Notes under the pieces: model-generated
Database searches by the model: none
What the model was told of the DNA's origin: nothing
The model's input: the letters and a program-made list of their open reading frames with translations, nothing else
Shown: in pieces, positions 9,351 to 27,915 of the stretch
Position numbering within the stretch: the first letter of the stretch is position 1
How the letters are laid out: the number at the start of each line of letters is the position of its first letter
Position numbers and translations under genes: made by a program
Assembly: GCA_002702705.1 (NCBI GenBank)
Contig: PABH01000053.1
Span: forward strand, 186,001-250,000
Source of the DNA: Anaerolineaceae bacterium
GTDB lineage: Bacteria; Chloroflexota; Anaerolineae; Anaerolineales; Anaerolineaceae
Direction: 5' to 3'
DNA: 64,000 nucleotides

Positions 9351-9403
9351 AACTGGTTAGTGGTCTTACCAGTTAGTATAGCAATATTTATAATAAAAAA
9401 CAA
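9351..9403 (-). promoter_or_regulatory. Promoter and FadR/GntR-type operator of the FAD oxidase gene
   Basis: On the minus strand a sigma-70 promoter TTGTTT-17 bases-TATACT (9375-9403) is followed at once by a 24-bp near-palindrome (9351-9374). Its arms AACTGGTTAG and CTTACCAGTT match at 9 of 10 pairs. It includes TGGTAAGACCA, which fits the TGGT-N3-ACCA form bound by FadR-type regulators. The operator covers the predicted transcription start, 34 bases before the ATG, as expected for repression. The same element occurs at 24949-24964. Confidence 0.65.
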
Positions 9404-9426
9404 TCAGAAAATTCTGATTGTTTTTT
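9395..9426 (-). terminator. Intrinsic terminator of the rhodanese gene
   Basis: CAATCAGA and TCTGATTG form a tight hairpin flanked by A and T runs, placed just downstream of the rhodanese stop on the minus strand. Its end overlaps the -35 box of the next gene's promoter. Confidence 0.8.
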
Positions 9427-9456
9427 ATATTTAAATTAATTTGACAAATCGGTTTT

Positions 9457-9870
9457 TTAAGGTCCCGTTACAACCTCATAACCTTGATTAGCCCATTCAT
9501 TCATCCCTCCCCCCATACTCGTAACATCAGAAAAACCAGCATCTAATAAAATATCGCGCCCAGTTGCACTGCGGTTACCAGATCGACATACTACAACGAT
9601 GGTTTCATCTTGCGGAATTTCACTAACCCGATTCTCCAATTCTCCTAATGGAATCAATGTTGCATCAGGAATATGTCCAGCTTCCCATTCTTCCGGTTGA
9701 CGAACATCTAATATAAAAGCACCTTGTTCACGTAAAGAATAAGCTTCCTCAACGTCAACTTCTAACGCCAATCCAGTTGTTGTGGCGGGTGAACATGCAG
9801 CTAAAAACATGGCCATCATCATGAATAATGTGAATAACCAATAAAATTTTTTCGGTTTAATCGATTTCAT
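9457..9870 (-). CDS. Rhodanese-domain lipoprotein
   Basis: A 137-residue exported protein. Residues 1-26 are a lipoprotein signal with lipobox LAAC (lipidation cysteine about 26), so it should be tethered outside the cytoplasmic membrane. The rest is one rhodanese domain (ILDVRQPEEWEAGHIPDA) with the active-site loop VVCRSGNRS, catalytic cysteine about 95. Such domains handle sulfane sulfur or serve as persulfide carriers; the physiological donor is unknown. The ATG at 9870 is preceded by AGGAGT. It lies 72 bases downstream of a small unknown gene on the same strand and has its own terminator. Confidence 0.9.
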   Translation of the reverse strand: MKSIKPKKFYWLFTLFMMMAMFLAACSPATTTGLALEVDVEEAYSLREQGAFILDVRQPEEWEAGHIPDATLIPLGELENRVSEIPQDETIVVVCRSGNRSATGRDILLDAGFSDVTSMGGGMNEWANQGYEVVTGP

Positions 9871-9942
9871 ACAATACTCCTGTACAGTATTTTTTTCTAT
9901 TTTAACTAATCTTTTATAAAAAAAGAGAAAATAATATAACCT

Positions 9943-10341
9943 TTAAATTTTTTCAATGACGACTCTATTAGGGGTTACTTCAATTGCCCAGGTGCCATTA
10001 TTCGCAAAATTATACACGGCTAACAAATGGTCATTTTCCCGTTTCATCGTCTCTAACTTAATCCCTTTTTTGAATTTAAAGGTTACAATTTCATCGTCCC
10101 ATTCCCCTTGTTCGGTTTCATCATATCCCTCCGGCGGGGTTCGGGTAGAAACAATTTCAGTTTCATTCAATATCAATCTTAACATTGCTTCTGGAATATC
10201 AACGGATAACATCAAACTTGCGGCTGCTTGTGTTTCCAACTCCATAATTTGTTCTTCTTTTGTCTGTTCCCACTGAACGGGCGACCAAATCCCTGGCAAA
10301 TCATCTACATGAAAGGTTAATGGATCAATAATTCCTGGCAT
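9943..10341 (-). CDS. Hypothetical protein, 132 residues
   Basis: Not recognised. It is an acidic soluble protein with no signal peptide or membrane helix. Predicted character: an N-terminal segment with WSPVQWEQTKEEQIMELE followed by a helix rich in A, L and M (QAAASLMLSVDIPEAMLRLI), then a beta-rich C-terminal half (EIVTFKFKKGIKLE, GTWAIEVTPNRVVIEK). GGAGG precedes the ATG at good spacing, and the codon use resembles that of its neighbours, so it is likely a real gene. It is divergent from the DMT permease with only 51 bases between the starts. Confidence 0.7.
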   Translation of the reverse strand: MPGIIDPLTFHVDDLPGIWSPVQWEQTKEEQIMELETQAAASLMLSVDIPEAMLRLILNETEIVSTRTPPEGYDETEQGEWDDEIVTFKFKKGIKLETMKRENDHLLAVYNFANNGTWAIEVTPNRVVIEKI

Positions 10342-10392
10342 TTATTCCTCCATGAAACAAAATTGTATTTTTAAAATTATAATAGGAAAATT

Positions 10393-11271
10393 TTGAGGTA
10401 TTCATTGATTGGATTAATTAGCGCTCTTTTTGCAGCAATATTATGGGCTTTAGCATCAATATTATATAAAAACTCTGGAGAAGTTGAGCACCCGATAAAG
10501 TTGAATTTTCTTAAAGGAATTATCGCCTTATTTTTATTAACAGTTACTGCATTAATCAACAAAACCGATTTTTTAATATTAAGAAATGATTTTTTATTAT
10601 TGGCATTAAGTGGACTTATCGGAATTGGAATCGGAGATACAGCCTATTTTTACGCATTAAAATTGATTGGTGCCCAACAAACACTTTTAATTGCAACTTT
10701 AGCTCCTGGGGTGACAATCATATTAGGTGGAATTTTTTTAAATGAAATACTGACAATCCAAACATTCTTTTCATTATTAATTTCCATAGTCGGCATCATC
10801 TTAGTCATTACTGCTGGCGAAAATAACAAAAATCTTCACTCAATTCGTGGTTACATCTGGTCATTATTAGCCATGTCGTCTCAAGCAATTGGTATTTTAT
10901 TATCCAGGCTTACCATGCGGACATCCGCAATTCCTGCATTAAGCAGTGCAATGGTCAGGTTATTTTTTGGAGTAATTTTCCTTTTTATATTAATTCTTAT
11001 CCAAAAAAGAAATATTTTCAAATATAAATTCGAGTCAAAGAACTTGTTTTTAACTTTTTTAATAGCTGTATTTTTCGGTACGTTTATTACAATGTGGTTA
11101 CAACAAAACGCATTAAAATTTCTTGAAGCAGGAATTGCCCAAACGTTGTTATCAACAAGCCCAATATTTATTGCAATTTTTCATATTATCTCCGGAAAAA
11201 AAGTAAAGCCCCAAACTATCTTGGGAATTCTCCTTTCTCTGATTGGGGTTTTTGTGTTATTTTTATTATGA
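10393..11271 (+). CDS. EamA/DMT-family permease
   Basis: A 292-residue integral membrane protein with ten hydrophobic helices in two similar halves, the pattern of the drug/metabolite transporter (EamA) family. Typical features include the start SLIGLISALFAAILWALASI and the repeated proline/glycine-rich turns such as GLIGIGIGDTAYFYALKLIG and ISTS/LLSTSPIFIAIF at the second-half loop. The substrate is unknown. The start is TTG 10393 after a weak AGGA; the stop overlaps the next gene's ATG in an ATGA, so the two are translationally coupled. Confidence 0.85.
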   Translation: MRYSLIGLISALFAAILWALASILYKNSGEVEHPIKLNFLKGIIALFLLTVTALINKTDFLILRNDFLLLALSGLIGIGIGDTAYFYALKLIGAQQTLLIATLAPGVTIILGGIFLNEILTIQTFFSLLISIVGIILVITAGENNKNLHSIRGYIWSLLAMSSQAIGILLSRLTMRTSAIPALSSAMVRLFFGVIFLFILILIQKRNIFKYKFESKNLFLTFLIAVFFGTFITMWLQQNALKFLEAGIAQTLLSTSPIFIAIFHIISGKKVKPQTILGILLSLIGVFVLFLL

Positions 11272-12140
11272 TGAATATTAATTTTTCAGTTGTCACCAAT
11301 CCAAATCAGACCAATATGTTTGATCACCTTCAATTAACAGTGCCAGGTGATTTATCAAACGAAGAAATCAAAGAAGTAATATACTTCGTAAAAAAGTACA
11401 TGCAACAAAAATTTGGGGTCACAATACAGGAAAATCCTAAGCAAACACCTGCGGTTCAAAGAACAAAACAAATAACAATACATCATTTTTATAATTATTT
11501 ATCACTCGTAAAGATCAGGAAAGGAGTTCGGGACCTTGAATTCAATTTTGATCTAAGTGAATTGAAGGGGCAGATACTTCTTTTTTTTCAAAATGAAGAT
11601 GAAGAGCTGTATTACATAAAATGGACCAGGGAAAGTTTCTTAAAACTACCTGAAAATTATTTATTACAACTGAAAGATAATGAGCTTCCCTGGAGTGGAA
11701 CGTTTATTGAAAGTAGCAATCTATTGCCAATTGAACTCACCTATCCGATCGAATCGTTAGACCTGATTTTAGTGGATAAATATCTACCCACATTATCTGA
11801 GTCGGCACGCACCTTTTGGGAAAACCAACTTCTTCCATTGATAAAAAAACACCAAAATGTTTTATTAGCTTGGGAAAATCATTTTTCATGTATTAATTCT
11901 CCCCAGCGGCTCTCTTACCGGATGGAAAACTCTGAAGAAAAAGAAATTGAATACTCAATCACCTGCACTCTATCTCCAGCGGGTTTTGATTCCATTTTTG
12001 GTTTATGGGTGCTTTTATGCGAAAAAAATGAGGAAATCATCATTCCGCTCTCTCAAATTATGAATTTTGAAAACCCCACTCTTGATCAAGTATTATCATT
12101 CTATAAAGATTGGATGCAAATCTTCTGCCCTGAAACATAA
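11268..12140 (+). CDS. Hypothetical protein, 290 residues
   Basis: Not recognised. A soluble, slightly acidic protein with no signal peptide, membrane segment or clear motif. Residues 85-150 look beta-rich (VRDLEFNFDLSELKGQILLF), and the second half is mixed with several aromatic residues (SARTFWENQL, VLLAWENHFSC, LVGFYKDWMQ-like end). It overlaps the DMT permease stop by 4 bases (start ATG 11268 or the adjacent ATG 11271). A strong terminator follows, so it is the last gene of a two-gene operon. A role linked to the permease is possible but unsupported. Confidence 0.7.
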   Translation: MMNINFSVVTNPNQTNMFDHLQLTVPGDLSNEEIKEVIYFVKKYMQQKFGVTIQENPKQTPAVQRTKQITIHHFYNYLSLVKIRKGVRDLEFNFDLSELKGQILLFFQNEDEELYYIKWTRESFLKLPENYLLQLKDNELPWSGTFIESSNLLPIELTYPIESLDLILVDKYLPTLSESARTFWENQLLPLIKKHQNVLLAWENHFSCINSPQRLSYRMENSEEKEIEYSITCTLSPAGFDSIFGLWVLLCEKNEEIIIPLSQIMNFENPTLDQVLSFYKDWMQIFCPET

Positions 12141-12169
12141 AAAGACCGGCTTTCGCCGGTCCTTTTTTT
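12139..12169. terminator. Bidirectional intrinsic terminator
   Basis: GACCGGC and GCCGGTC pair around TTTC, flanked by A residues on the left and a long T run on the right. It can stop transcription from both convergent genes. Confidence 0.9.
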
Positions 12170-12177
12170 ATAATGTT

Positions 12178-13389
12178 TTATTTATCCAAACGAGGTGCCA
12201 ACCAGAAGATATTTGATGTAGTTTCACTTCGATTACTGATTCCTAAGATTAGCTGAACTTTTTTACCATTATAGGCTGACAGGTCTACATCAATCGATGT
12301 TATCTTTTTATCGTAACTCTCAGTCCATTTACCCAAGTTCTTAATACTTCCATCCACTTTGATATCCAAGCTGATTACAGCATCGCAGGATGAATTACCA
12401 TTCACACAACCAATTATTGAAATGAAATGCTCTCCATTAATTTCAACCTCTGGATAAAATCCCTGTATCCAGCTATCTTTTTTACCATCAAGGTGCATAA
12501 TAATTGATCGTTCGTCATCTTGATAATCATTTTCAAATTTTGGGCTCATATCCACTGCGACCCAAGAATTAGAATTAAATTTATCTGAGTCACATGGATA
12601 AGCGATTTTATCAAAACTACCGTCCCATGTTGCGGAACATATTTTTGCAGTAAAATCATAATCATATTTGACAGTGGGTACGTCATCGGTTTTGTAATCA
12701 TCGACAACCACACTAACCCAGAAGGATTGATCCGCATTACTTCCTACGCCAAACAGTTTTCCGGAGTCAGATCGCAACATCCAATACCCTTTGTAACTTC
12801 CAGCTTTTTCTGGTGCTGTAAATTCAATCGACAAATCCACTGTCTCACCTGGGTTAACCGCTTTCGAAATATCAATAGCAGCTGGAGCACCCATAGCATT
12901 TCCACTTACAAATACCAAATCATATGATGTAGTCCAAACCGTTGAACCTGAATTTTTAAGCCGCCAAGTTTTCGTGAATTTGCTGCCACTCTCGACAATG
13001 GTTCCATCGGGAATAGTAACATCTTTTTCGAAATTAACTTTGTCATAAGATGATGGGGTTGGGGTCTTCGTTGGTAAAGCTTGAGTTGGAACCGGTGTAT
13101 TGGTTACTGCAACAGAAGTCCGGGTAGGTTCTTCTACTACCGCGGTTGGTAAAATCGCTGTTTCTGTTGAATTCGGTGATGCATCGGTAGGTAAAGGAGC
13201 AATCTGTGTAGCTTCAGCCACCAAGGTAGAAAAAGCTTGTTCCGTCATCATTGCCTGTACTGTTTGCATTGCAATGGTACTAATCGTGTTTGGATCAGAA
13301 ATATCCGGGGTCTGGGCTTGCCAGGAACATGCAGCCAGGATTAGGATAATAATTAATGATACTGGAAAGATAAAAATTTTTTTATTCAT
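12178..13389 (-). CDS. Lipoprotein with NBR1-type Ig-like domain
   Basis: A 403-residue surface lipoprotein. Signal peptide with lipobox LAAC (cysteine about 21), then a Thr/Pro-rich linker (residues about 60-112, including PVPTQALPTKTPTPSS) typical of Anaerolineae exported proteins. Residues about 115-230 form an NBR1-like Ig domain: TIPDGTIVESGSKFTKTWRL, GSTVWTT, and a GYWMLRSDSGKLFG strand. The last 150 residues are beta-rich with paired cysteines (KICSAT, YPCDSD, IGCVNGNSSC) that could form disulfides. Function is probably binding or adhesion; the ligand is unknown. AGAGG precedes the ATG at 13389. Confidence 0.85.
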   Translation of the reverse strand: MNKKIFIFPVSLIIILILAACSWQAQTPDISDPNTISTIAMQTVQAMMTEQAFSTLVAEATQIAPLPTDASPNSTETAILPTAVVEEPTRTSVAVTNTPVPTQALPTKTPTPSSYDKVNFEKDVTIPDGTIVESGSKFTKTWRLKNSGSTVWTTSYDLVFVSGNAMGAPAAIDISKAVNPGETVDLSIEFTAPEKAGSYKGYWMLRSDSGKLFGVGSNADQSFWVSVVVDDYKTDDVPTVKYDYDFTAKICSATWDGSFDKIAYPCDSDKFNSNSWVAVDMSPKFENDYQDDERSIIMHLDGKKDSWIQGFYPEVEINGEHFISIIGCVNGNSSCDAVISLDIKVDGSIKNLGKWTESYDKKITSIDVDLSAYNGKKVQLILGISNRSETTSNIFWLAPRLDK

Positions 13390-13491
13390 GATTAACCTCT
13401 TTTATTTGTATTTCTATATCGCTAAGACGATTTATCGCTGTAAAATGTTCCAATTGATAAGACAGCAAAAAATCGATTAAAATAACCAACA

Positions 13492-14451
13492 ATGAATAAC
13501 AATCAGAACGTAAAATTTTTTATCGGTGATATTCCAATCTATAACCCAGTTATGTTAGCTCCTATGGATGGTTTCACTGATTTACCATTTCGAACCATTG
13601 CAAAATCTTTCGGGGCAGGAATTGTTTTTTCGGAATTTATCAATGGGTTGGATGTATTAAACAACCACCCCCATTTACATCAGTTAACAAAATTTTCAGA
13701 ATCGGAAAGGGTATTTGCATACCAAATCTTTGATGATTCTCCTCAGCGGATTCTGGATACTGCGCTTATCTTACAAGATAAAAAACCCGATTTCATTGAT
13801 ATTAATATGGGTTGTTCAGCAAAAAATGTATCCAGCCGAGGAGCTGGTGCGGGTTTATTAAAAACACCAGAAAAAATAAAAACCATTTTTCAATTATTAA
13901 CAAGCAGTTTGCAGATTCCAATCACAGGAAAAATTCGTTTGGGATGGGATAACGATCACTTAAACTACCTCGAAGTAGCAAAAATCTTGGAAGATAACGG
14001 TGCTGCCATGATTACTGTACATGGACGCACCAAACAACAAGGTTATTCAGGTTTCGCCGATTGGAAAAAAATTACAGAAGTTAAACGGGCTGTTAAAATC
14101 CCTGTGATCGCAAATGGTGATGTCCTAAAAGTTGCTGACATTGAACGAATTATTTCTGAAACAGGCTGTGATGGGGTTATGATTGGTAGAGCTGCTCTAA
14201 AAAACCCTTGGATCTTTTCCTATAAGGACAAAAACCAGATTTCTAAAGAAGAAATCTGGCGTGTATTTAACCTTCACCTACACAGCATGATTGAGTTTTA
14301 TGGAGTGAAAACTGGATTATTATTGTTTCGAAAACATATCCGCAGTTATATCGATGTGACAAATTTGACAAGGGAAGAACGAACCCATTTATTTAATCAA
14401 AAAAAGCCGGACCGCCTCATCTCAAAAGCAGCAGCCTACCTGTTTGAATGA
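13492..14451 (+). CDS. dus: tRNA-dihydrouridine synthase
   Basis: An FMN enzyme that reduces uridines in the D loop of tRNA. The 319 residues start the TIM-barrel with VMLAPMDGFTDLPFRTIA and keep the catalytic-cysteine loop DINMGCSAKNVSSRGAGAGL, cysteine about 108. They also keep the FMN phosphate-binding blocks ITVHGRT, IPVIANGDV and CDGVMIGRAAL. The overall form is closest to the DusB/Dus bacterial group; which positions are modified cannot be told. No strong ribosome site precedes the ATG. It is divergent from the Ig-domain lipoprotein and nearly abuts the convergent AhpD-like gene. Confidence 0.93.
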   Translation: MNNNQNVKFFIGDIPIYNPVMLAPMDGFTDLPFRTIAKSFGAGIVFSEFINGLDVLNNHPHLHQLTKFSESERVFAYQIFDDSPQRILDTALILQDKKPDFIDINMGCSAKNVSSRGAGAGLLKTPEKIKTIFQLLTSSLQIPITGKIRLGWDNDHLNYLEVAKILEDNGAAMITVHGRTKQQGYSGFADWKKITEVKRAVKIPVIANGDVLKVADIERIISETGCDGVMIGRAALKNPWIFSYKDKNQISKEEIWRVFNLHLHSMIEFYGVKTGLLLFRKHIRSYIDVTNLTREERTHLFNQKKPDRLISKAAAYLFE

Positions 14452-14452
14452 T

Positions 14453-14797
14453 TTATTGATTTTCTAGAGCCATATCAAGCGTTTCCACTGCATGACGAAG
14501 ATGAGGTATAACTATACTCCCACCTACAACCAATGCAATATTAAAAATTTCATACAACTCATCTGGGGTTGCTCCTTCAGCCACACATTGCAAAATATGG
14601 TAATCAATACAATCATTACATCTTAAAACCATCGAAGCCACCAACCCCATCATTTCTTTCGTCTTTTGGTCCAAAACACCATTTTCATATGCTTTTGTAT
14701 CCAAATTAAAAAATCTTTTGATACCCAAATGATCAATCTCAAAAATCCGTTCATTCATTTTTTTACGGTAAGTATTAAATTCATCAATTCTTGACAT
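14453..14797 (-). CDS. Carboxymuconolactone decarboxylase/AhpD-like protein
   Basis: A 114-residue, all-helical protein of the CMD/AhpD superfamily. It has the redox motif C60-N-D-C63 followed by H67 (VLRCNDCIDYHILQCVAEGA), as in AhpD-type peroxidase or disulfide reductase members, and the family's GATPDELYEIFNIALVVGG helix. It probably works as a small thiol peroxidase or disulfide reductase, but most members have no known substrate. It is convergent with the dihydrouridine synthase with 1 base between the stops. Confidence 0.87.
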   Translation of the reverse strand: MSRIDEFNTYRKKMNERIFEIDHLGIKRFFNLDTKAYENGVLDQKTKEMMGLVASMVLRCNDCIDYHILQCVAEGATPDELYEIFNIALVVGGSIVIPHLRHAVETLDMALENQ

Positions 14798-14856
14798 AAT
14801 TTTTCATATTCCTTCTCACATGATAAAATTTACAAAACAATTTTTATAGTATATCA

Positions 14857-16158
14857 ATGAGTAAAAATATGACACAAGCAAACTGGACTCCTCCACAAGA
14901 TTTTATTGAAGTTCCCTCCGCTGATGACAAAATCCGTGTTTGGGCACCAATTCCCCAATCGGAACTATCAGAAACAAGCCACACATATAACTGTCCAAAC
15001 TGCGGTGCACCAACAAAGTTTGATATAACAACAAGTGGACTGTCGTGTGTTCACTGTGGATATCAAGTAAAACCTGATTCAAAAAACATTGGAAAAGCTG
15101 CTCAAGAATTAGAGTTTCGAACAGAAACAATTAAAAAAGCCGATATGTCATGGTACGAAAACCGAAATCAGGTCCATTGTGAAAATTGTGGAGCAAACTT
15201 GTTGGTAGAAAAAAATGACGTTTCTGTAAAATGTCTATTTTGCGCTTCAAATAAAGTGATTCTCCAAAAGGCACCTTCACAGGAATTTTACCCTAGCGCA
15301 ATTATTCCTTTTAAGACAAAACCTGCACAAGTTGAAAACTCAATTCTTACTTGGTTGGAAAAAGGTTGGTTTCATCCAAAAGAATTACAACAAAATGCAA
15401 AAATCAACAAATTATCACCAATTTATATTCCAGCATGGACTTTTGATACAGACATCGACGCACAGTGGAAAGCTTTAGTTGGGTATGAAAGACAAAAAAG
15501 ATATTATGATTCCAGTTCAAAAACCTGGAAAACCAAAACCGTAATTGACTGGTGTTGGGAAGATGGACAAGTAAAAGAAACAATCGATGATTTCTTGATC
15601 TCAGGATCGGACAAAATCCAAGATCATTTATTTGTGAATATATCAAATTTTAACCTTTCCGACTTAATGGAATTTTCACCAGATTTTTTAGTCGGTATTA
15701 AAGCCCAGTTATATTCCAAACATTTACCAGAGGCATGGAATGAAGCCAAAGGCAAATTGCGTGAATACATGAAAGATGCTTGTTACCATGATATACCAAC
15801 ATCCCACGTCCGCAATTTTAGTCTTGTCGCAGATTTTCAAAATGAAACCTGGCGCATCATTTTTTTACCAATTTACATCATTACCTATATTTATCAACAA
15901 AACACATATCAAGTGGTTGTTAATGGACAAACCAACCAACTGGCAGGCCAAAAACCTGTTGACTGGAACAAGATTTGGTTGGCTTTCGCTGGGTTGTTCG
16001 CACCGGGTATTTTCGCAGCATTTATTTCATTAATTTTATTGGTTTTAGGAACTCCAGGACTAATCGGATTATTGATTAGTTTTTTCCTATTGGTCATTGG
16101 TGGAATTATTGCTGTATCAATCTATCAGAAAGCAAAAGCATCCGAAAAAGGTTCTTAA
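14857..16158 (+). CDS. Membrane-anchored protein with two zinc ribbons (paralogue 1)
   Basis: Function unknown. The 433 residues begin with two zinc ribbons: CPNC/CVHC (about residues 46-68) and CENC/CLFC (about 107-128). A large soluble domain follows (IIPFKTKPAQVENSIL, YIPAWTFDTDIDAQWKALVG, DFLVGIKAQLY, NETWRIIFLPIYIITYIY). The C terminus has two strong hydrophobic helices (about 375-400 and 403-425). The next gene encodes a clear paralogue, overlapping by one base (TAATG), so both are made together and may form a heteromer. The zinc ribbons face the cytoplasm if the two helices form a hairpin; this is inference. Confidence 0.75.
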   Translation: MSKNMTQANWTPPQDFIEVPSADDKIRVWAPIPQSELSETSHTYNCPNCGAPTKFDITTSGLSCVHCGYQVKPDSKNIGKAAQELEFRTETIKKADMSWYENRNQVHCENCGANLLVEKNDVSVKCLFCASNKVILQKAPSQEFYPSAIIPFKTKPAQVENSILTWLEKGWFHPKELQQNAKINKLSPIYIPAWTFDTDIDAQWKALVGYERQKRYYDSSSKTWKTKTVIDWCWEDGQVKETIDDFLISGSDKIQDHLFVNISNFNLSDLMEFSPDFLVGIKAQLYSKHLPEAWNEAKGKLREYMKDACYHDIPTSHVRNFSLVADFQNETWRIIFLPIYIITYIYQQNTYQVVVNGQTNQLAGQKPVDWNKIWLAFAGLFAPGIFAAFISLILLVLGTPGLIGLLISFFLLVIGGIIAVSIYQKAKASEKGS

Positions 16159-17237
16159 TGAAAACAAATATTATTGAGTTTTTATCGATAACAAAAACAT
16201 GGGGTTGTGAAAAATGCGGAAGTCTTTATCTTAAACATGATAAGTCCAGCTTCTGTCCGGTCTGTGGTGATAAACATGTTCAGGAAATTAATACCAATAC
16301 ACAATATCCCGAAATTGAATTAATACTAAATTTCCATAAAAACGTACAGGATTACGAAGACAAAATCCAAAATTTTATTCAACCTGTTAAATTTAAAACT
16401 GAACAACTTAATCTGAATACAATAAAAAAGAACGGAGAATGGGTATTTTTCCCATTTTGGTTAGTTGACAGCAAAGCCAATGGGTCTTGGAAAGCTGAGT
16501 TCGGCTTTAATTATTTAGTAGAAAGTTCAGTTGAACACTTACAACATGGAGAATGGATCAGCCAAAAAACAAATGAAACCCGAATTGATTGGAAGCCCCG
16601 ACAAGGTACAGTAGAAAAAGAATATTCCAATATCTCTATCTCCGCGTTATCTTATTACAATCAGTTAGAAAGAATTTTCGGGTCTTATAATTTATCAAAC
16701 GATAACAAATCCTTAACCGATTATCAATTTACCAATCAGATAACTTTAATTTATCCAAATATTGATAAAAATACCGGTTGGCAGTTTGCAAAAGAATCTT
16801 TAATAAAAAAAATAAATAGCGATTGTCAGAGCGCGGCAGGTGCCCAACATACAAAAACATTTTCACAGCAAGTTCAATTCAGTGACCAAAACTGGACTTT
16901 ATTACTTCTGCCTTATTTTGTTTCTCATTACTCTGATGAGGCAGGAAATCCTTATTCCATTTGGATCAATGGTCAATCTCTTAGAATTCAAGGCGATCGT
17001 TATTCATCCCCCGCCAAAGGAAAACAGTTCGGTTTTGTATTTTTATTAATCTCTTTTGTACTTTTTTTGCTATTCCTCTTATTTGGATACTTATCAAGAA
17101 TGTCGGATCTTGTGGCGATTTTGGCATTTTTTAGCTTATTAGCTAGTATTGGTTTTTTGATTGGTTCTATTTACTCCTTTTTTTACCCATCAAACTGGAA
17201 CAAAAAAAATACCAATACTTTTAATAAAGCTGGGTAA
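16158..17237 (+). CDS. Membrane-anchored zinc-ribbon protein (paralogue 2)
   Basis: Function unknown. The 359 residues start with one zinc ribbon (CEKC ... CPVC, about 17-37) and share the core of the preceding protein: a W-rich block FFPFWLVDSKANGSWKAEFG, then TGWQFAKESLIKKINSDCQ, NWTLLLLPYFVSHYSDEAG and SIWINGQSLRIQG. Two hydrophobic helices follow at about 295-345. The start codon shares its A with the previous stop (TAATG). Its last 17 bases overlap the convergent gene at 17221, which also encodes a zinc-ribbon membrane protein. Confidence 0.75.
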   Translation: MKTNIIEFLSITKTWGCEKCGSLYLKHDKSSFCPVCGDKHVQEINTNTQYPEIELILNFHKNVQDYEDKIQNFIQPVKFKTEQLNLNTIKKNGEWVFFPFWLVDSKANGSWKAEFGFNYLVESSVEHLQHGEWISQKTNETRIDWKPRQGTVEKEYSNISISALSYYNQLERIFGSYNLSNDNKSLTDYQFTNQITLIYPNIDKNTGWQFAKESLIKKINSDCQSAAGAQHTKTFSQQVQFSDQNWTLLLLPYFVSHYSDEAGNPYSIWINGQSLRIQGDRYSSPAKGKQFGFVFLLISFVLFLLFLLFGYLSRMSDLVAILAFFSLLASIGFLIGSIYSFFYPSNWNKKNTNTFNKAG

Positions 17238-17889: not shown

Positions 17890-19597
17890 TATTAATTAAA
17901 CGTCTTTTTTCCATCTTAAAAATTCTTCGAAGGATAGCTAAAGAAGCTGCATAAGTGGAATCCATACCCAGATAAGATAATGTTCCAGCACCCAAATTTT
18001 TACCTTTACTCAGTGGTGTATCTGATGCGTAATGTACCACGCCTAAATCAAAAGGAAGGCCATATAAATTAACAATTTCATTAACTGGATGTCGTGTTGG
18101 TCGGTACATTTCATATATAGCAGATAAAACAGGTCCAGCTTCCATCTCAATATCGGAATACCCCTCACGATAAAAGACTTCAGCCAATTTTCCATTTTGT
18201 AAAAATGTCCCCAGCACTGTAACTGCTTTTTGATTGTCCATTACCGTACCGTAAATTAAATCTTCAGATACGTCCTTGGCTGAAAAAGCATTCTTAAACA
18301 TATATGTATTTTTTGAGTGCTCATCATGCACAACATTTGGAATCATAACATCACCCAAAACCCCATTCAGGGTAGCTGCCTTTCCCATAATATAAACACC
18401 CAAGACCGGTGAAACGTGTTCTGCAACTTTAGTTAGGATGTTATAGGCTGCCAGTCCCAAAGGATAATCGATATTTAATATCAAGGCATTACTATTTTTT
18501 AAGTAAGCTAAATCAGAATGATTTAATAAACGCGGATCTAGCTCTTCAACATTTATCCGATTAATCGGAATAACTTGTGCATCAACATCAAAATAATGTT
18601 TGCTGGCTATGCGAATTATCCCAAGCTCTTTTTCATATGCCCGTTGTTCTTTTTTTAAGTAAGTCCAACCGGGGGTTTGTTGTGCTTTTTTTAGAAGGTA
18701 ATACAAAAAATTCTCTAAGTTTGTTTGGCTTTCACTGTTTTTAATTTGTTCCCATTCATCCTTTAATTTCTCATCGCCTTCTTTTTCTAAAAACGCCATT
18801 AGGATATCTTTTTTTCGAAACGCAAATCCGGTTAGAAGATTTGTGATAGAGTGTGTATTCGAGGAAACAAAATAAACGGGATTTTTTAATAGATCCGGGT
18901 AAGATCGTTCAATATTTTCCCACCAGGCGCGTGTCGCTCGCCAATATTCAGTTAAGGAACCAGTTAACAAATTAACCCGAAAAGCACATTTATGATCTTT
19001 AATTAACTTGAGGTAATCAATAAATTCGTCCTCCCATATGATACGGAGACGTAATAAATCCTCTTCTGCTAAATTTAAATGAGCAGCCAAGGATGAAAAT
19101 GCTTCATTTGAGATTAAGATATCATCAATTTTAAAATCTGTAGGGATTTTTTGCATCAGCAAATGCAATTTATTCCACTCAATTTGGTAAGCAGTTAGGC
19201 TAGGTAATACATCTTCAATATCGGTTCTACTAGCAATAAAACAACCTAAACGGTCTTTACCATCAAAATAACATCTTCGCCGTCTGGCTTTTGCTGTTAC
19301 AGGCTGCCAGCTCTCAACATCGCAAATACCATGCTGGTCAAAAACCGCACTGCTCTGACCTAAAATTATAAGGCGCACTTTGGACATACAATCGGGAAGC
19401 CTTAATATACTATATATAAAAGCAGCCGCATCCGGAGAATCATTCCGCGCATCAGGATGTAACAAAGAATTCATTCCCGCATGAACTTCTTCCAAAGTAC
19501 GAATTTGTATTTCTGTTGTTGATCTTAACAAAGAGTAAACTGTTCTTAGATACAAATCGATTTCTTCAGTTGCTGTTTTTGGGACTGTTCTTTCCAT
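17879..19597 (-). CDS. Large conserved hypothetical protein with nucleoside-phosphorylase-like C-terminal half
   Basis: A 572-residue soluble protein. The N-terminal 330 residues are mostly helical and I do not recognise them. The C-terminal half has features reminiscent of the purine nucleoside phosphorylase fold: ATLNGVLGDVMIPNVVHDEH, a GTVMDNQKAVTVLGTF strand-turn, and SDIEMEAGPVLSAI, comparable to the family's E-M-E-A segment. It may correspond to a DUF6909-type Chloroflexota family, but I cannot confirm that. GGAGG stands ahead of the ATG at 19597. The following zinc-ribbon membrane gene overlaps it by 11 bases, so the two likely work together. Confidence 0.65.
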   Translation of the reverse strand: MERTVPKTATEEIDLYLRTVYSLLRSTTEIQIRTLEEVHAGMNSLLHPDARNDSPDAAAFIYSILRLPDCMSKVRLIILGQSSAVFDQHGICDVESWQPVTAKARRRRCYFDGKDRLGCFIASRTDIEDVLPSLTAYQIEWNKLHLLMQKIPTDFKIDDILISNEAFSSLAAHLNLAEEDLLRLRIIWEDEFIDYLKLIKDHKCAFRVNLLTGSLTEYWRATRAWWENIERSYPDLLKNPVYFVSSNTHSITNLLTGFAFRKKDILMAFLEKEGDEKLKDEWEQIKNSESQTNLENFLYYLLKKAQQTPGWTYLKKEQRAYEKELGIIRIASKHYFDVDAQVIPINRINVEELDPRLLNHSDLAYLKNSNALILNIDYPLGLAAYNILTKVAEHVSPVLGVYIMGKAATLNGVLGDVMIPNVVHDEHSKNTYMFKNAFSAKDVSEDLIYGTVMDNQKAVTVLGTFLQNGKLAEVFYREGYSDIEMEAGPVLSAIYEMYRPTRHPVNEIVNLYGLPFDLGVVHYASDTPLSKGKNLGAGTLSYLGMDSTYAASLAILRRIFKMEKRRLINNDK

Positions 19598-19783
19598 TTT
19601 TCCTCCGGGTTGATTTGTTGTATTATAGCGGAAAATTAAATATTATTAAAATCGCTTAATTATTAATCCCTGTTTATAATTGTACTGTCTTTAATATAAT
19701 AAAAATTTCACATTACCGTTTATCCCTTTTTATGAAAAAATTAATAGATTAAATCCACGGTTACAATAGGCGAAATTAATTAA

Positions 19784-22054
19784 ATGACGAATAATATAAA
19801 GGTTATAGAAGCAAACAACATGGACAGATTCGACAGGTTTATCACAGAAATTTCTTCTGAATTTATCAATCTTGAATATCACGAAATTTCTGAAGCTATC
19901 ATACTGGGTTTACAAAAAATATCTGAGTTATTAGATATTGAGCGAATTGTTATTTATGTCATTTCCAATGAATTTAATGAGTCAGTGTTTGAATGGAAAA
20001 ATCATAAAAGCAAGTACCGCAACCTAACCACAAAAGAGAAAATTAAAATTCAATTTCCATGGTTAATTTGCCAGCTCGAGAAGAGTCCGCAAGTTTATAT
20101 TTCTGATTTATCTCTGCTGCCTGAATCAGCCCATATAGAAAAAGGTTTGTTTTTATCAGAAAAAATACTTTCTTTGGTAGCAGTTCCTGTCTTTCACAAA
20201 AGCAATCTCGCTGCTTGGATGGAGCTTTCCTCCTCAAAAAAATCTTTTGAACTTGACCATGACGTTATTTCTAGGATTAAAAACTGTGCCAATATTTTTA
20301 TGAGTGCTTTAACTCGAAAAAAGAACGAAGAAAAAATAATTCTCCTAAATAACGAACTTGAAAAGAAGATCCATGAAAAATCTATTGAATTAACAACTTT
20401 ATTAAATATTCAAAAAGCCCTAACAACCGAATTACATGTTGATCATGTCATTCAATTAATTGCTGATGAAGCACGAAGATTAACCAACACAAAAATTGGC
20501 ACGCTTTTCCTGCTTGAAGATGATATTTTAAAATTAAAGACTTTTTCTGGAGATCAGCGGTTTGGTTTGCCAATAGGTTATGAAATCTCTTTAAAACAGT
20601 CTATTCCCGGTGTTGCTTTAAAAACTGGTTCTCCTCTTTTGATAGAAGATGTAAACGATACGCCGGAAATTTTTCATGATTTTGTGAATACCATTAAAGT
20701 CAAATGCATTTTGTTGGTTCCCCTGTTATCAGGTCGAACCACAATTGGTGTTATTTCTGTTGCAGATAAAGAAACAGGGGTGTTAGGAAAAGATGATGAA
20801 CGCTTATTAAAAATGTTTGCTAATGTTGCTACGATAGCATTAGGAAATGCACATATTTATCAACAAGAGCAAGATCGTAGAGAAGAGGCAGAGCGTGGAC
20901 AAAAAATTGCTGAAGCATTAAGAGATATTTTAAGGATATTAAACTCGAAATTGGAATTACCAGAAGTTCTTTTTTATATTGCCAATCAGTCTAAAGATTT
21001 ATTGAGCGCAACGTCCACCATGGTCAGAAAAATCAATTATGAAAAAAGCACTGTAATAACGGAGGCATCTGCCAATTTACCACAAGCTTTTGATGTTATT
21101 AAAGAAATTCCTTTTTATGAGGGTGGATCGGATCGCATTTTACGTGAAAACAAACCGGTCGCAGTATCTGATTTAAGTGAAAGTTTAGGTCGATATCTTG
21201 AAGATCCGCAAGAATTATCTGATCCACAAAAAGCATGGGTAGAGGTAATTTTAAGGTATTTTAAATCTCACCTGATTGTGCCCTTGATTATTAGCGAGGA
21301 TCTCTATGGAACTTTAACATTCTATTATGAAAAACAACGTGAGTTTACCACAGAAGATATTCACCTCGCACTAACCTTAGCAACACAAGTATCACTTGCT
21401 ATAGAAAATGCCCGTCTTCGAAATACAGAGAAAGAAATTGCTGTAGCAGCCGAAAGAAATCGTTTAGCAAGAGATTTACACGATGCCGTTACACAAACTT
21501 TATTTTCAGCAACCTTAATTGCAGAAGTATTACCAAAACTCTGGAAAAAAAATCCATCGGAAGCCGAACAGAGATTAGAAGAACTTCGTCAACTGACTCG
21601 TGGAGCTTTAGCAGAAATGCGAACCCTCTTGTTGGAATTAAGACCATCCGCATTGATGGATGCTTCACTTCCGGAATTAATGAAACAATTATGTGAAGCA
21701 CTTAATGGGCGTTCTCGCTTACCGGTTGATTTGCAAATTCTCGGTGATGAAGAATTACCAGGTGAAGTCAAGGTGGCTGTATACCGGATCGCCCAAGAAG
21801 CTTTAAATAACATCGCCAAACATGCTGACCCGGAAGAGGTTTTTATCCAAATACAACTTCAAAAAGACCATTTTCGAATGATGATTCATGATGACGGCAA
21901 AGGCATGGTCATTAATAAGGAAGCACCATCTAACCACCTCGGTCTTAATATTATGCGAGAAAGAGCGCAATCGATTAATGCCAAATTATCCATTGAAAGT
22001 GAACCAAAAGAAGGCACAACCATTATTGTTGACTGGGAAAAACAAAAAAATTGA
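19784..22054 (+). CDS. Soluble sensor histidine kinase with three GAF domains (NarL/LiaS-type core)
   Basis: A 756-residue cytoplasmic kinase; no membrane helix is present. Three GAF sensor domains occupy about residues 15-185, 215-370 and 385-550, joined by coiled coils (EKIILLNNELEKKIHEKSIE). The HisKA_3 dimerisation helix carries the phosphorylated histidine in RNRLARDLHDAVTQTLF (about residue 566). An HATPase domain follows (YRIAQEALNNIAKHA, HDDGKGM, HLGLNIMRERAQ). Kinases of this type normally signal to a NarL/LuxR response regulator, but none lies next to it, so it is an orphan here. Multi-GAF kinases often sense redox state, cyclic nucleotides or small molecules; the ligand is unknown. 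Confidence 0.9.
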   Translation: MTNNIKVIEANNMDRFDRFITEISSEFINLEYHEISEAIILGLQKISELLDIERIVIYVISNEFNESVFEWKNHKSKYRNLTTKEKIKIQFPWLICQLEKSPQVYISDLSLLPESAHIEKGLFLSEKILSLVAVPVFHKSNLAAWMELSSSKKSFELDHDVISRIKNCANIFMSALTRKKNEEKIILLNNELEKKIHEKSIELTTLLNIQKALTTELHVDHVIQLIADEARRLTNTKIGTLFLLEDDILKLKTFSGDQRFGLPIGYEISLKQSIPGVALKTGSPLLIEDVNDTPEIFHDFVNTIKVKCILLVPLLSGRTTIGVISVADKETGVLGKDDERLLKMFANVATIALGNAHIYQQEQDRREEAERGQKIAEALRDILRILNSKLELPEVLFYIANQSKDLLSATSTMVRKINYEKSTVITEASANLPQAFDVIKEIPFYEGGSDRILRENKPVAVSDLSESLGRYLEDPQELSDPQKAWVEVILRYFKSHLIVPLIISEDLYGTLTFYYEKQREFTTEDIHLALTLATQVSLAIENARLRNTEKEIAVAAERNRLARDLHDAVTQTLFSATLIAEVLPKLWKKNPSEAEQRLEELRQLTRGALAEMRTLLLELRPSALMDASLPELMKQLCEALNGRSRLPVDLQILGDEELPGEVKVAVYRIAQEALNNIAKHADPEEVFIQIQLQKDHFRMMIHDDGKGMVINKEAPSNHLGLNIMRERAQSINAKLSIESEPKEGTTIIVDWEKQKN

Positions 22055-22107
22055 TATTTTATCTGCTCTATTGATTTAATTTCTTTTTTTATTTTTTGGG
22101 ACCAAGC

Positions 22108-22142
22108 ATTGACATCATCGAAAGTCTGAATGTGATGTCAAT
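22108..22142. repeat. Inverted repeat between convergent genes
   Basis: ATTGACATCA and TGATGTCAAT form perfect 10-bp arms separated by 15 bases. There is no T run after the stem on either strand, so it is not a standard terminator, though it lies between a convergent gene pair. Confidence 0.5.
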
Positions 22143-22165
22143 ATCATAATCTTGGAAAAATTCGT

Positions 22166-23245
22166 TTAAGCATACTTATCTAAAAGAAATGTAATAACCT
22201 GATCAGCCCCATTTATTTTATTTTGTACAGATCTGGCTTGGTTTTTCATAATTTTTTCAGCCTTATTAACCCATCCTCCAGATAATAAATCAGTTTCACT
22301 GAGTTCTCTCCCGATCATTGATCTGTGAATGAAATTCTCCAATTCTTGAGATTCGGGGAACATTAAACGAGGAATATACAATAGAGGTGTATCAGCATGG
22401 TAAGCTTCTGAAATAGTACTATAACCAACCTTTGCAATAATTAAATCCGCTGCTTGTACTAGATCTGGGTGGAAATAACGATGATTATGTGGAAGTAAAT
22501 GAAAATTTTTATATATTTTTTCTTCAGTTATATTTCCAACAGGAAATATAATTTTAAAATTTGAAGGCACTTTACTTAACATTGCTTCTTCGAAGTTTAT
22601 TGGAACACCACCCATTGTTATTAAAACCATTTTATCATCGGGTCGAACTTTCAATCTTTCTCTTATGATCTCTCTTGAATTCCTTGGAATACGTGAGATC
22701 GGCTCTATAGGAGAATAAGCAGATTGAAGTTTACAATATGGTTTTGTCACCAAATGATGTGTGGTTCGAGAAAAAACATCTGAAAAATATTTAATCCAAT
22801 TTTCTAGTTCCGGATTTTTTGGAAGATAAGCTTCATAGATCCAATCCCATGTAAAATTCTCAATTAATATAGAATCACAACCAATAGCCTCGGCAGCAAG
22901 TATACCTAATGGTGAAATATCCGAAAAAACAAGTTCAATCATTTGTACCTTAAGTTGTTTTACTAACTTTTGGAAAGTTGTTGCTTCTGGGGGAAAGATA
23001 CTTCGTAGTGACTGAATAGTTTGGGTAATATCTTCTTCAAATGGATTCTTTTGAATAAGCCCAACATCAGTGGACCATTGAATATAATCAAATTGATTTT
23101 CAGGTATAGAATTTGTAAAAAACCATTTCGGTGTATTAGTGTATATAAATACTCGATGCCCATTGGCGATAAGAAGATTAATAACAGCACTTGAGCGTGC
23201 TGCATGCCCAAATCCATGCGAAGAGATAAAATAAGCAATATTCAT
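22166..23245 (-). CDS. GT-B glycosyltransferase-like protein
   Basis: A 359-residue protein with the GT-B fold pattern. The start MNIAYFISSHGFGHAARS is the motif shared by MurG-like transferases and by the N-terminal domain of plant arabinokinase. The donor-binding half contains VLITMGGVPINFEEAML, DLVQAADLIIAKVGYSTISE and TPLLYIPRLMFPESQELENF, the classic GT28/GT1 C-terminal pattern. Donor and acceptor are unknown; cell-envelope or lipid glycosylation is possible. There is no signal peptide. GAGG precedes the ATG closely. The SpoIIE phosphatase and methyltransferase lie upstream on the same strand with short gaps, so an operon is possible. Confidence 0.78.
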   Translation of the reverse strand: MNIAYFISSHGFGHAARSSAVINLLIANGHRVFIYTNTPKWFFTNSIPENQFDYIQWSTDVGLIQKNPFEEDITQTIQSLRSIFPPEATTFQKLVKQLKVQMIELVFSDISPLGILAAEAIGCDSILIENFTWDWIYEAYLPKNPELENWIKYFSDVFSRTTHHLVTKPYCKLQSAYSPIEPISRIPRNSREIIRERLKVRPDDKMVLITMGGVPINFEEAMLSKVPSNFKIIFPVGNITEEKIYKNFHLLPHNHRYFHPDLVQAADLIIAKVGYSTISEAYHADTPLLYIPRLMFPESQELENFIHRSMIGRELSETDLLSGGWVNKAEKIMKNQARSVQNKINGADQVITFLLDKYA

Positions 23246-23313
23246 TTATCCTCAGTTATATAGGCAAAAATGAATCATAATAATCTGTTATAAAAACAGC
23301 TATCGCTGCCTTC

Positions 23314-24039
23314 TTACAAATCAAAATTGTAATCAGTCTGAACCGGTAAACGGATTCCCATTCTTCGAATATTATCCGTTTGTTTTGAAATCACTCTTAG
23401 TACAACAACACTCATATCATCATTTGGTTCATTTTGATCCAAACGTAATGCGTGGCCCAACAAAGAATCTGCTACATATTGAGCAGAAGGTTCTTGTTCA
23501 TCCAGATAAGCTTGTGTCATGGAACATATATCCAATGAGTGTCCATATTTTGATCCAGCTTGCGATATACCGTCGGTATACATAACAATTGTTGTTCCAG
23601 CCCTCAATGGGACTTCCGTGATTGCTGGCCGAATATTTCGCATGTGTCCAACTCCAACACTTTCACTGGAAACACACTCCACGTGGTTACCTTGTGCAAT
23701 AAACACTGGAGTTGGGTTATTTCGCGAAATGACAATCGTCTGCGTTTGCAAATCTGCGGACAATATGTTCATATATACAGAACTGGTACCGCCTCGTTCC
23801 ATAAATAAATAATCAGAGGCTGCCCGAGCAGCTGCGCCATCACGTACACCATCTGCCAATAAGGATATTACTTTTCGAACAACCATTGAAGAAATGTTTT
23901 TTGCATTATGGCCAGAATCTCTTCCGTCCACAAGAACTACCGATACGCCACCCATTGGTCGTTCAACTACTTCCAAGGTATCTCCGCTCTCGGTAGAGGT
24001 GTATTTCACAGCTTTTGCAACCGATAATTGAATTTCCAT
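23314..24039 (-). CDS. SpoIIE/PP2C-type serine phosphatase
   Basis: A single 241-residue PPM-family phosphatase domain without sensor domains. The metal-binding aspartates appear in SVVLVDGRDSGHNAKNIS, TTIVMYTDGISQAG and EPNDDMSVVVLRV, as in SpoIIE/RsbU/RsbX. Such enzymes dephosphorylate anti-sigma-antagonist proteins or other phosphoproteins. Its small stand-alone form resembles RsbX. No antagonist or anti-sigma kinase gene is adjacent, so its partner must be elsewhere. No clear ribosome site precedes the ATG at 24039. Confidence 0.87.
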   Translation of the reverse strand: MEIQLSVAKAVKYTSTESGDTLEVVERPMGGVSVVLVDGRDSGHNAKNISSMVVRKVISLLADGVRDGAAARAASDYLFMERGGTSSVYMNILSADLQTQTIVISRNNPTPVFIAQGNHVECVSSESVGVGHMRNIRPAITEVPLRAGTTIVMYTDGISQAGSKYGHSLDICSMTQAYLDEQEPSAQYVADSLLGHALRLDQNEPNDDMSVVVLRVISKQTDNIRRMGIRLPVQTDYNFDL

Positions 24040-24084
24040 AATAAGATTTTAATACAAAATCCAAAAAATGTAAGGTCATTTGTA

Positions 24085-24726
24085 TTATTTTTCTGCAATA
24101 AGTATGATTAATTTATGGGTATTTAACTTTTTATCGACAAAACTCACATTTTTAAATCTGGAAAATTGATTCTGATCTAGTATTGCGCGAGCTATATTCG
24201 GATTTATTTGTTGCCCTGTTATAGAATAAATCATCCTGTAAATCTTATCTCTAATAGAATTTCCAGTAAATTCGACACCTAATAAAATTATAAAACATCC
24301 GTCTGGTTTTAATAATTTACATATTTCTTCTTGATAAACAGTAAGGAAAACATATTCACTTGGAAAAATTGCAATAATCCTGTCAAATTGATTTGATAAA
24401 AATGGTAAATTAAGTACATTTGCCCGAACTAATCTTGCATGCGAGTATGTTTTGAGCCTTCGACGAGAAATCTTAGCCATAGAAGAGCTTTCATCGATTC
24501 CTATAATATTAAAATCATTCTTTAGTAAATGCTCTTGAAAATGACCAGTACCGAACCCTAGTTCTAGTATTGTCAGATCATCCGAAACAAATTCAGATAA
24601 ACTTTTTCCCCAATCAAACCATTTTCCGCTTGATACAACGTTGGCAACAATATCATAAGCCCAAGCAAAGTTATGATACAAATGAAAAAACAAAAATGAC
24701 ATCATTTTTTGAAATAATCTTCCCAT
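24085..24726 (-). CDS. Class I SAM-dependent methyltransferase
   Basis: A 213-residue Rossmann methyltransferase. Motif I is ILELGFGTGHFQEHLL (about residues 53-68), the ribose-binding acid is in FNIIGIDESSSMAKIS, and the later motifs are LVRANVLNLPFLSNQFDRII and LLKPDGCFIILLG. The N-terminal 30 residues are hydrophobic and aromatic (MMSFLFFHLYHNFAWAYDIV), typical of family members that act on lipids or quinones, but the substrate is unknown. A small inverted repeat (ATACTAC/GTAGTAT) overlaps the start codon region at 24725-24744. Confidence 0.82.
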   Translation of the reverse strand: MGRLFQKMMSFLFFHLYHNFAWAYDIVANVVSSGKWFDWGKSLSEFVSDDLTILELGFGTGHFQEHLLKNDFNIIGIDESSSMAKISRRRLKTYSHARLVRANVLNLPFLSNQFDRIIAIFPSEYVFLTVYQEEICKLLKPDGCFIILLGVEFTGNSIRDKIYRMIYSITGQQINPNIARAILDQNQFSRFKNVSFVDKKLNTHKLIILIAEK

Positions 24727-24913
24727 ACTACTCTATTGTAGTATAGTAAATAAAAATAAATAAAAACCATAGAATTTCCCGTTCAAACATTTTAGTTTTT
24801 CTTATTAATTCAATTAAATGAGCAAACAAAAAAAGCTTGGGAGTTCTTAAGGCAAACAACACATAATCAAAACAGCTAATTAAAATTTCCTTTCCAGATT
24901 AAATTTAAAAAAC

Positions 24914-24964
24914 TTGAATCAACTTTTATTTTTTGTTACACTCATTAAGGTAAGACCTCTTACC
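24914..24964 (+). promoter_or_regulatory. Promoter with FadR-type operator before the GntR/FGGY operon
   Basis: TTGAAT-17 bases-TACACT (24914-24942) is a plausible sigma-70 promoter. The perfect palindrome GGTAAGA-CC-TCTTACC (24949-24964) lies on the predicted transcription start, 19 bases before the ATG. Its core AGGTAAGACCT is a palindrome of the GGT-N3-ACC class read by FadR-type regulators. The 17-base sequence GGTAAGACCTCTTACCA differs at only two positions from the one in the FAD oxidase promoter (9354-9370). Confidence 0.7.
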
Positions 24965-24983
24965 ACAACAAGGATATTTATTT

Positions 24984-27522: not shown

Positions 27523-27915
27523 ATGAACAATCCCACCAATTTAAAATACACAAAATCTGATGAATGGATAAAAGTTGATGGAAATATCGCTACAATTGGT
27601 ATTTCAGATTATGCACAATCACAATTATCCGATATTGTTTACCTTGAGTATTTGGTCGATGTTGATGATGAAGTGTCCAAAGGGGACGCATGTGTCACAC
27701 TTGAATCAGTGAAAGCCGCTGCGGATGTGAACTGTCCACTTTCCGGAAAGGTTACAGAAATTAATGAATCATTAAGTGATGAATTTGAAGCTGTTAACTC
27801 TGATCCATTTGGTAAAGCTTGGATGGTGAAAATCGAATTTACTGATGCATCCGAGTTGGATGAATATATGACAGCGGAAGAATACTCAAAATATAATGAA
27901 GAGCGAGAACACTAA
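27523..27915 (+). CDS. gcvH: Glycine cleavage system H protein
   Basis: Carries the aminomethyl group on a lipoyl-lysine between the P, T and L proteins. The 130 residues show the lipoyl domain with the attachment lysine in ESVKAAADVN (about residue 64) and the typical start KYTKSDEWIKVDGNIATIGI. It is the first gene behind the glycine riboswitch. AGGAGC precedes the ATG, and the stop overlaps the gcvPA start in a TAATG. The C terminus (about 115-130) is a short charged tail slightly longer than in many homologues. Confidence 0.97.
   Translation: MNNPTNLKYTKSDEWIKVDGNIATIGISDYAQSQLSDIVYLEYLVDVDDEVSKGDACVTLESVKAAADVNCPLSGKVTEINESLSDEFEAVNSDPFGKAWMVKIEFTDASELDEYMTAEEYSKYNEEREH

Follow-up and report, generated by a model that had tools for sequence, protein, structure and literature searches.

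What connects a fadR-like gene and a gene for a flavin adenine dinucleotide (FAD)-linked oxidase that lie 15.6 kb apart in the genome of an Anaerolineaceae bacterium (Chloroflexota)? Both genes are located in the window, a stretch of 64,000 nucleotides (assembly GCA_002702705.1, contig PABH01000053.1, positions 186,001 to 250,000), and each is preceded by a copy of the same short sequence. A sequence-only reading of the window had proposed that the two copies are operators through which the FadR-like regulator represses both its own gene and the oxidase gene. Our analysis bore out this finding and widened its scope, since that reading had missed the glpD target, the kinase gene adjoining fadR, the 24-bp extent of the operator and the family of the oxidase. 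The explanation we favour, with a probability of roughly 0.88, is that a FadR-type repressor controls the fadR-kinase unit, an oxidase of the alkyldihydroxyacetonephosphate synthase (AGPS) family and glpD via a common operator from which a lipid-type ligand would release it, and that these units come from one broken operon.

The operator and its conservation before fadR

The two 17-mers, GGTAAGACCTCTTACCA at 24949-24965 on the plus strand and GGTAAGACCACTAACCA at 9354-9370 on the minus strand, differed at two positions, consistent with the earlier reading. A search of the window with up to three mismatches found just these two places (a third row was the first palindrome on the opposite strand), and shuffled sequences averaged 0.05 matches and never had more than one. 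Each 17-mer was part of a 24-bp element (Table 1) with a sequence of about AACTGGTNNGACCWCTTACCAGTT, in which a core similar to that of Escherichia coli (E. coli) FadR, TGGTNNGACC, was combined with a conserved third half-site. A conserved operator sequence of the TGGT-N3-ACC type, a putative binding site, was present. Across 43 sites, columns G9, T10, G13, A14, C15, C16, T19, A21, and C23 were invariant, and two dyads shared the left arm. The first dyad, in the FadR register TGGT-N3-ACC, was centred on column 12, with symmetry in 75% of cells; the second, AACTGGT-N10-ACCAGTT, was centred between columns 15 and 16 (77%). The statement that both sites are palindromic was correct for the inner arms of the fadR copy, which were perfect with imperfect outer arms (5/7); the 9354 copy was a weak palindrome inside the 17-mer, yet its outer arms AACTGGT/ACCAGTT were perfect. 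The 11-bp core alone was of little use as a search pattern, with 21 places found in the window at one mismatch against 17.3 expected, which is the chance level, and 132 places in the genome (one mismatch or fewer) against 210 for the reversed control. An exact copy of the core, TGGTTCGACCT, at window 20731-20741 lay inside an apparent histidine kinase gene and is probably meaningless because the core alone occurs at chance level. An exact TGGTAAGACCA on contig C4 was likewise inside an apparent ABC-transporter gene.

The genome (5.9 Mb, 74 contigs, 97% complete) was scanned for GGTAAGACCWCTWACCA with up to two mismatches, a check that the sequence-only reading had suggested, and four places were found, just one of them in coding DNA. 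These were the two window sites, a site with one mismatch on contig C51 that ended 27 bases 5' of the start codon of a 530-residue protein, glpD, and, on contig C10, a match that had two mismatches and lay within a reading frame. The genome was also searched with a model built from 43 of the 45 distinct site sequences, including the three sites of this genome. (Locus L069, a match within a reading frame, and L049, one base from L047, were left out.) Up to E 10 it returned only the three sites before fadR, the oxidase gene and glpD, with 150 of the 1701 first-look candidates scored. This search revealed no operators before genes of fatty-acid degradation or synthesis, where an E. coli-type fad/fab regulon would have them, although weak sites could be missed at this depth. 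A second model was free of the window's genus and was built from 25 fadR-upstream sites (L040-L066 minus L049 and minus L042, which belongs to the genus). In eight genomes of the genus, with 150 of 940-1503 candidates scored in each, it gave 24 hits at E 1 or better, of which 8 were before fadR, 13 before glpD or the oxidase gene and 3, weak ones, elsewhere. In the window's genome the three hits were those of the fadR-kinase unit, the oxidase gene and glpD. The fadR sites scored 15.7-22.6 bits and the target sites 27.4-30.2 bits; a weaker site at the promoter of the regulator itself than at its putative targets fits autorepression. None of the three weak hits (E 0.16-0.99) was accompanied by a gene for FadR, GlpD, the oxidase or the kinase in the surrounding 5-kb stretch, and one of them, in genome G174, sat between genes.

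Analysis of the relatives showed that the site is conserved before fadR orthologues, another check that had been proposed. Of the 251 genomes of the order, 55 had a FadR match at E 1e-20 or better. In the best 30 loci from these 55 genomes, the site preceded fadR in all cases; 27 of the sites matched GGTNNGACCWCTWACC exactly, and the other 3 deviated from it at one or two positions. A larger set of 80 loci, the best 80 of 242, which shares species with the 30-locus set, carried the site no more than 120 bp from fadR in 78 cases, 73 of them exact and 5 near. The two misses were L155, with just 19 upstream bases, and L198, with 269 bases and no site. No exact GGTNNGACCWCTWACC was found elsewhere in the 833,184 bases of these 80 loci. 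Exact matches in the 251 genomes of the order, sorted by hand, numbered 54: 42 were before fadR, 7 before glpD or the oxidase gene in the window's genus, and 5 inside long reading frames of other families. A reversed-pattern control gave about 93 places (hand count), more than the pattern itself, so that the evidence is the position of the matches and not their number. The same 24-mer, with the last base or two varying, was also found before fadR in three genomes outside the window's class (G354, G318, and G513) and in two of another family of that class (G386 and G595); G585 had no site in its 209 available upstream bases. FadR_C proteins were detected at E 1e-10 in 19 of 400 phylum genomes sampled, and among 14 control genomes E. 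coli alone had one. Some loci carried variants of the arrangement. The element was reversed in orientation before fadR in L102, L188, and L200, and a 17-bp palindrome, AACTGGTCTGACCAGTT, stood in place of the usual site in L044 and L143. The divergent FadR relatives of L240, L241, and L242 (37-41% identity) were accompanied by 17-bp FadR-core palindromes without the third half-site, and in L240 and L241 two such palindromes were about 33 bp apart.

Table 1. Positions in the window of the operators, putative promoters and genes discussed in the text
Feature	Position	Strand	Remarks
Operator before fadR, 24 bp	24945..24968	+	FadR core 24948-24958; model score below target operators
Operator before oxidase gene, 24 bp	9351..9374	-	Core TGGTAAGACCA at 9361-9371
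fadR-like regulator, 228 aa	24984..25670	+	GntR domain at N terminus, then FadR_C; identity to E. coli FadR about 36-37%
FGGY kinase, 520 aa	25684..27246	+	Starts 13 bases past fadR stop
FAD-linked oxidase, 578 aa	7581..9317	-	AGPS family, HHHGVGK motif
Putative fadR promoter	24914..24942	+	TTGAAT-17-TACACT; weak, under threshold of strict scan
Putative oxidase promoter	9375..9403	-	TTGTTT-17-TATACT, abuts operator; weak, under threshold of strict scan

The regulator and its expected action

The regulator contained a GntR domain at residues 12-72 (PF00392, 1.5e-18) and a FadR_C domain at residues 74-223 (PF07840, 8e-36). It scored above the cut-off of the FadR equivalog NF003444 (214 against 189) and below that of TIGR02812, fadR_gamma (206 against 249). 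The solved structures closest by sequence were those of E. coli FadR. The fold predicted with 12 orthologues (mean predicted local distance difference test, pLDDT, of 91) likewise had its nearest matches among the structures of E. coli FadR, the myristoyl-CoA complex being one of them, with a template-modelling (TM) score of 0.83 and 37% identity against 1h9g. The residues compared were R35, T44, R45, T46, T47, R49, and H65 for DNA contact and G216, S219, and W223 for acyl-CoA, with the roles described in excerpts of PMC4259882. In the window's protein, five of the seven DNA-contact residues were identical, with T46 replaced by Pro and H65 by Gln, and R35, T44, R45, T47, and R49 were invariant in 30/30 orthologues. 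Judged by its domains, most of its DNA-contact residues and its predicted fold, the regulator is a FadR, in line with its original description. The claim of a TGGT-N3-ACCA-like core also stood, and the core resembled E. coli FadR operators. When a 17-bp matrix from the Chloroflexota sites was run on E. coli upstream stretches, the sites of fadI (21.1) and fadE (20.6), which we take to be FadR targets, came top of their own stretches.

In the proposed mechanism, the protein would bind as a dimer to TGGTNNGACC[A/T] in the register of E. coli FadR, and the third half-site, 7 bp further on, would aid binding. The operator would overlap the start of three units, namely fadR with the FGGY kinase gene (autorepression), the gene for the AGPS-family oxidase, and glpD, and bound FadR would block RNA polymerase. 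By descent, the ligand releasing FadR would be either a long-chain acyl-CoA or some lipid intermediate related to it. The induced set would then comprise enzymes around glycerol-3-phosphate and dihydroxyacetone phosphate and their acylated or alkylated forms. The units would descend from a broken-up fadR operon, each piece keeping or acquiring a copy of the operator.

The sites might instead be operators of another regulator of the GntR type, with fadR merely a target. Such a candidate exists in the genome, since a second FadR_C-type GntR protein is encoded at C51:62913-63365 (L224:4869-5675; E 9.8e-16), and GT-N3-AC spacing is common to the broad FadR subfamily of GntR proteins in the part of PMC4494728 that deals with it. 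However, the site precedes the fadR orthologue in 78/80 loci and does so in other families and another class as well, and its core resembles E. coli FadR operators. The paralogue shares 26% identity with the window's regulator and has a different recognition helix (SRPVLHQ against TRPTLRE, by eye). No core-matrix site was found in the 10 kb around its gene. Control by another regulator is thus improbable.

The location of the promoters bears on the outcome of binding by FadR. For the proposal that both sites cover the start of a sigma-70 promoter, the hexamers at both genes were weak (Table 1), and the promoter position is well supported only by the relatives. Of the 71 loci whose exact site points forward, 42 had a -10-like hexamer (5/6 or better) in the 16 bases 5' of the operator, compared with 7 and 4 in two control stretches. 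These hexamers ended 1-8 bases 5' of the operator, mostly 2 or 6, and a -35-like hexamer (4/6 or better) was found 16-18 bases upstream in 52/62 cases, compared with 10/62 when shifted by 8. Transcription therefore probably starts within the operator, a position that makes repression likely. Autorepression plus repression of the oxidase gene, as put forward at the outset, is supported by the conservation of the sites, the model free of the genus and the core; the sense of the control, repression, is suggested by the position of the operator. FadR could also bind and act on some units mainly as an activator, the part that E. coli FadR plays at fabA; according to passages of PMC4259882, E. coli FadR has both roles. 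The operator, however, was just 3' of the -10-like box and over the expected start in most relatives, a position expected for repression, and predominant activation is about as improbable as control by another regulator.

A palindrome at this place could also function after transcription, by folding into a hairpin at the 5' terminus of the RNA. Pairing between the outer arms is possible (77% of cells in the 43 sites), and the expected +1 is close to the start of the element. However, no clear covariation beyond shuffles was found for either dyad in these sites (for the outer arms, 73 of 500 shuffles reached the score), which is expected if the element is DNA read by a protein rather than an RNA stem. 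In addition, the invariant G13, A14, C15, C16, and T19 would fall in the loop, the fadR copies of the genus had lost part of the arm pairing with the core kept, and the element was reversed before fadR in three loci. The RNA hairpin was rejected as very unlikely. Chance likeness of two promoter-proximal sequences, for which the chance-level frequency of the 11-bp core and the larger number of reversed-control matches could be cited, is already refuted in our judgement by the position of the sites and their conservation before orthologues.

Putative target enzymes and the proposed scattering of the operon

The best solved relatives of the oxidase were alkyldihydroxyacetonephosphate synthases (E 5.8e-63), and the next family followed at 8.8e-23, so that the oxidase was nearer to AGPS than to either GlcD or D-lactate dehydrogenase; against the GlcD equivalog it scored 138.7, far below the cut-off of 567.9. 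Aligned to 2UUU, it retained the HHH motif and the Tyr of H[LI]SH.Y (HLSHSY), which we take to be catalytic. By these sequence comparisons the oxidase is a member of the AGPS family. The 530-residue protein on C51 belongs to the aerobic glycerol-3-phosphate dehydrogenase family, with the NCBI equivalogs matched below their cut-offs. The FGGY kinase is probably cotranscribed with fadR because the gap between the two genes is 13 bases. The possibility that it is the glycerol kinase GlpK was rejected: it reached 179 bits on TIGR01311, compared with a cut-off of 590, and a search for GlpK located the canonical enzyme on contig C30 (757 bits), beside another glpD-related gene (28% identity). With moderate confidence, a role in the glycerolipid or ether-lipid backbone is favoured over plain glycerol catabolism.

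In most relatives, fadR, the oxidase gene, glpD and often the FGGY kinase gene formed a single operon. The 80 loci, many of which are on contigs that end early, were inspected for these genes on the fadR strand up to 7 kb past fadR. An oxidase homologue was present in 67. All three enzyme genes were found in 39 loci, oxidase and glpD in 26, the kinase alone in 6, glpD alone in 4, the oxidase alone in 2, and none in 3. The kinase-only loci (L121, L123, L124, L125, L133, and L175) agreed with genomes of the window's genus (L125 by its coordinates with G243), in which the operon was split and an operator was present on each piece. Genomes G231, G251, and G252 had two units, fadR-kinase and glpD followed by the oxidase gene, with two sites. 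In G174, G243, and G254, the glpD and oxidase sites were separate and 3-7 kb apart. G253, a fragmented assembly, had three sites on three contigs, and in the window's genome the oxidase gene is distant from fadR and glpD is on a different contig. It appears that a single operon was scattered with a copy of the operator on each piece, and we infer the order of events from this graded series within the genus.

Two types of oxidase were found in the relatives. Of 13 examined, 7 (including the window's) had HHH and 6 had HQH, and the second type, represented by L111, also best matched AGPS. Among the 67 loci with an oxidase gene, the 22 nearer to the window's type had glpD first, 44 nearer to the L111 type had the oxidase first or no glpD seen, and the remaining locus was an exception. 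In L097-L115 and L121-L200, both types occupied the same slot of the operon, a possible enzyme replacement.

Some neighbouring features of the window were also recorded. A 16-pair hairpin with T runs at 9393-9428, between a rhodanese gene and the oxidase gene, is probably a terminator isolating the oxidase unit. A polyphosphate kinase 2 gene at 6698-7501, 79 bases after the oxidase gene on the same strand, might be cotranscribed with it. Genes resembling gcvH and gcvPA of glycine cleavage, assigned by eye, lie at 27523-29264, 276 bases after the kinase gene, and their relatives stay beside the kinase gene in L106 and L107.

Evidence against the explanation and comparison with known systems

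Several observations weigh against control of these genes by FadR as proposed. A strict sigma-70 promoter scan found nothing reading into fadR or the oxidase gene, and the genome-wide model searches scored only some of the candidates, so that weaker sites may be missed. Among the fadR-bearing genomes of the order, 13 of 55 lacked an exact site. Of these, five had the site at one or two mismatches, G059, G077, and G171 had FadR-core palindromes without the third half-site (in tandem in two of the three), three had distant paralogues with another palindrome, G101 had none, and G092 had no upstream sequence. The matrix that ranked the fadI and fadE sites first scored low on the upstream sites of E. 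coli fadB (10.3), fadL (10.3), and fadD (8.9), and the fadB and fadD stretches had a higher-scoring position outside the promoter; fadL, fadD, and fadBA are listed as FadR targets in portions of PMC4259882. Of the DNA-contact residues, T46 was Pro in 30/30 orthologues, and H65 was Gln in 12/30, including the window's protein, and His in 18/30. Of the acyl-CoA residues, S219 was retained in 30/30 and W223 in 29/30, the latter being Met in the window's protein. Acyl-CoA is uncertain as the signal because G216 was Met in 30/30 orthologues. Because the genome encodes its canonical glycerol kinase at another locus, "glycerol catabolism" is not established as the function.

A broader picture can be offered tentatively. 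Across several families of Chloroflexota, which represent two classes or more, a FadR-type lipid sensor may control a dedicated ether-lipid or glycerolipid backbone module of AGPS-like oxidase, GlpD and FGGY kinase via a three-half-site operator, with one genus showing stepwise scattering, and the ligand may be a variant of acyl-CoA or of the acyl- or alkyl-dihydroxyacetone phosphate type, which would explain Met 216. If so, a graded series of one unit, two units, three near units and three distant units would be available for studying the change from operon to regulon. Among the titles listed in the open-licence literature on FadR with glpD, Chloroflexi or Anaerolineae, none described this regulon; RegPrecise was outside this search, and a database prediction may exist.

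FadR is described as exclusive to gammaproteobacteria in sections of PMC4259882, and a table in the available part of PMC4494728 includes six Chloroflexi members of the broad FadR subfamily. The present regulator would extend FadR to another phylum with nearly the same core and other targets. It shares with E. coli and gammaproteobacterial FadR the pair of domains, 36% identity, five of seven contact residues, the TGGTNNGACC-type core and the predicted fold. It differs in the phylum, the third half-site, the change of G216 to Met and the targets found, which were the kinase, glpD and the AGPS-family oxidase genes and not fad or fab genes. In the GntR survey of PMC4494728, as far as its excerpts go, GT-N3-AC spacing is given for FadR, and extra half-sites are weaker and located 7-12 nt from the palindromes, whereas conservation of the third half-site here came close to that of the core (A21 and C23 did not vary across the 43 sites).

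The oxidase resembled AGPS (PDB 2UUU and 4BBY) as its best solved relatives and in the retained HHH, whereas many relatives carried the second type in its slot, with HQH in the six examined. The agps gene of Myxococcus serves alkenyl-ether formation, and homologues occur in metagenome-assembled genomes of Chloroflexota, according to passages of PMC11868695. By annotation, the trio of FAD-binding oxidoreductase, GlpD homologue and FGGY kinase is also that of PA3026-PA3024 of Pseudomonas aeruginosa, which in the consulted portion of PMC8151288 is controlled by GliR (PA3027), is proposed as a route from glycerol to alkylglycerone phosphate, and had no growth effect on deletion in the conditions tried. 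A similar module with the three genes together was found in 39/80 loci and was split in the window's genus. The likeness is one of annotation, and GliR, an AraC-type activator, is unrelated to FadR; control by a regulator of the lipid-sensor type would offer a lead to the function of this trio, whose role in Pseudomonas is open. As a FadR regulon, the system is of a known kind, and the phylum, the targets, the third half-site and the break-up of the operon are what make the Chloroflexota regulon a variant of it.

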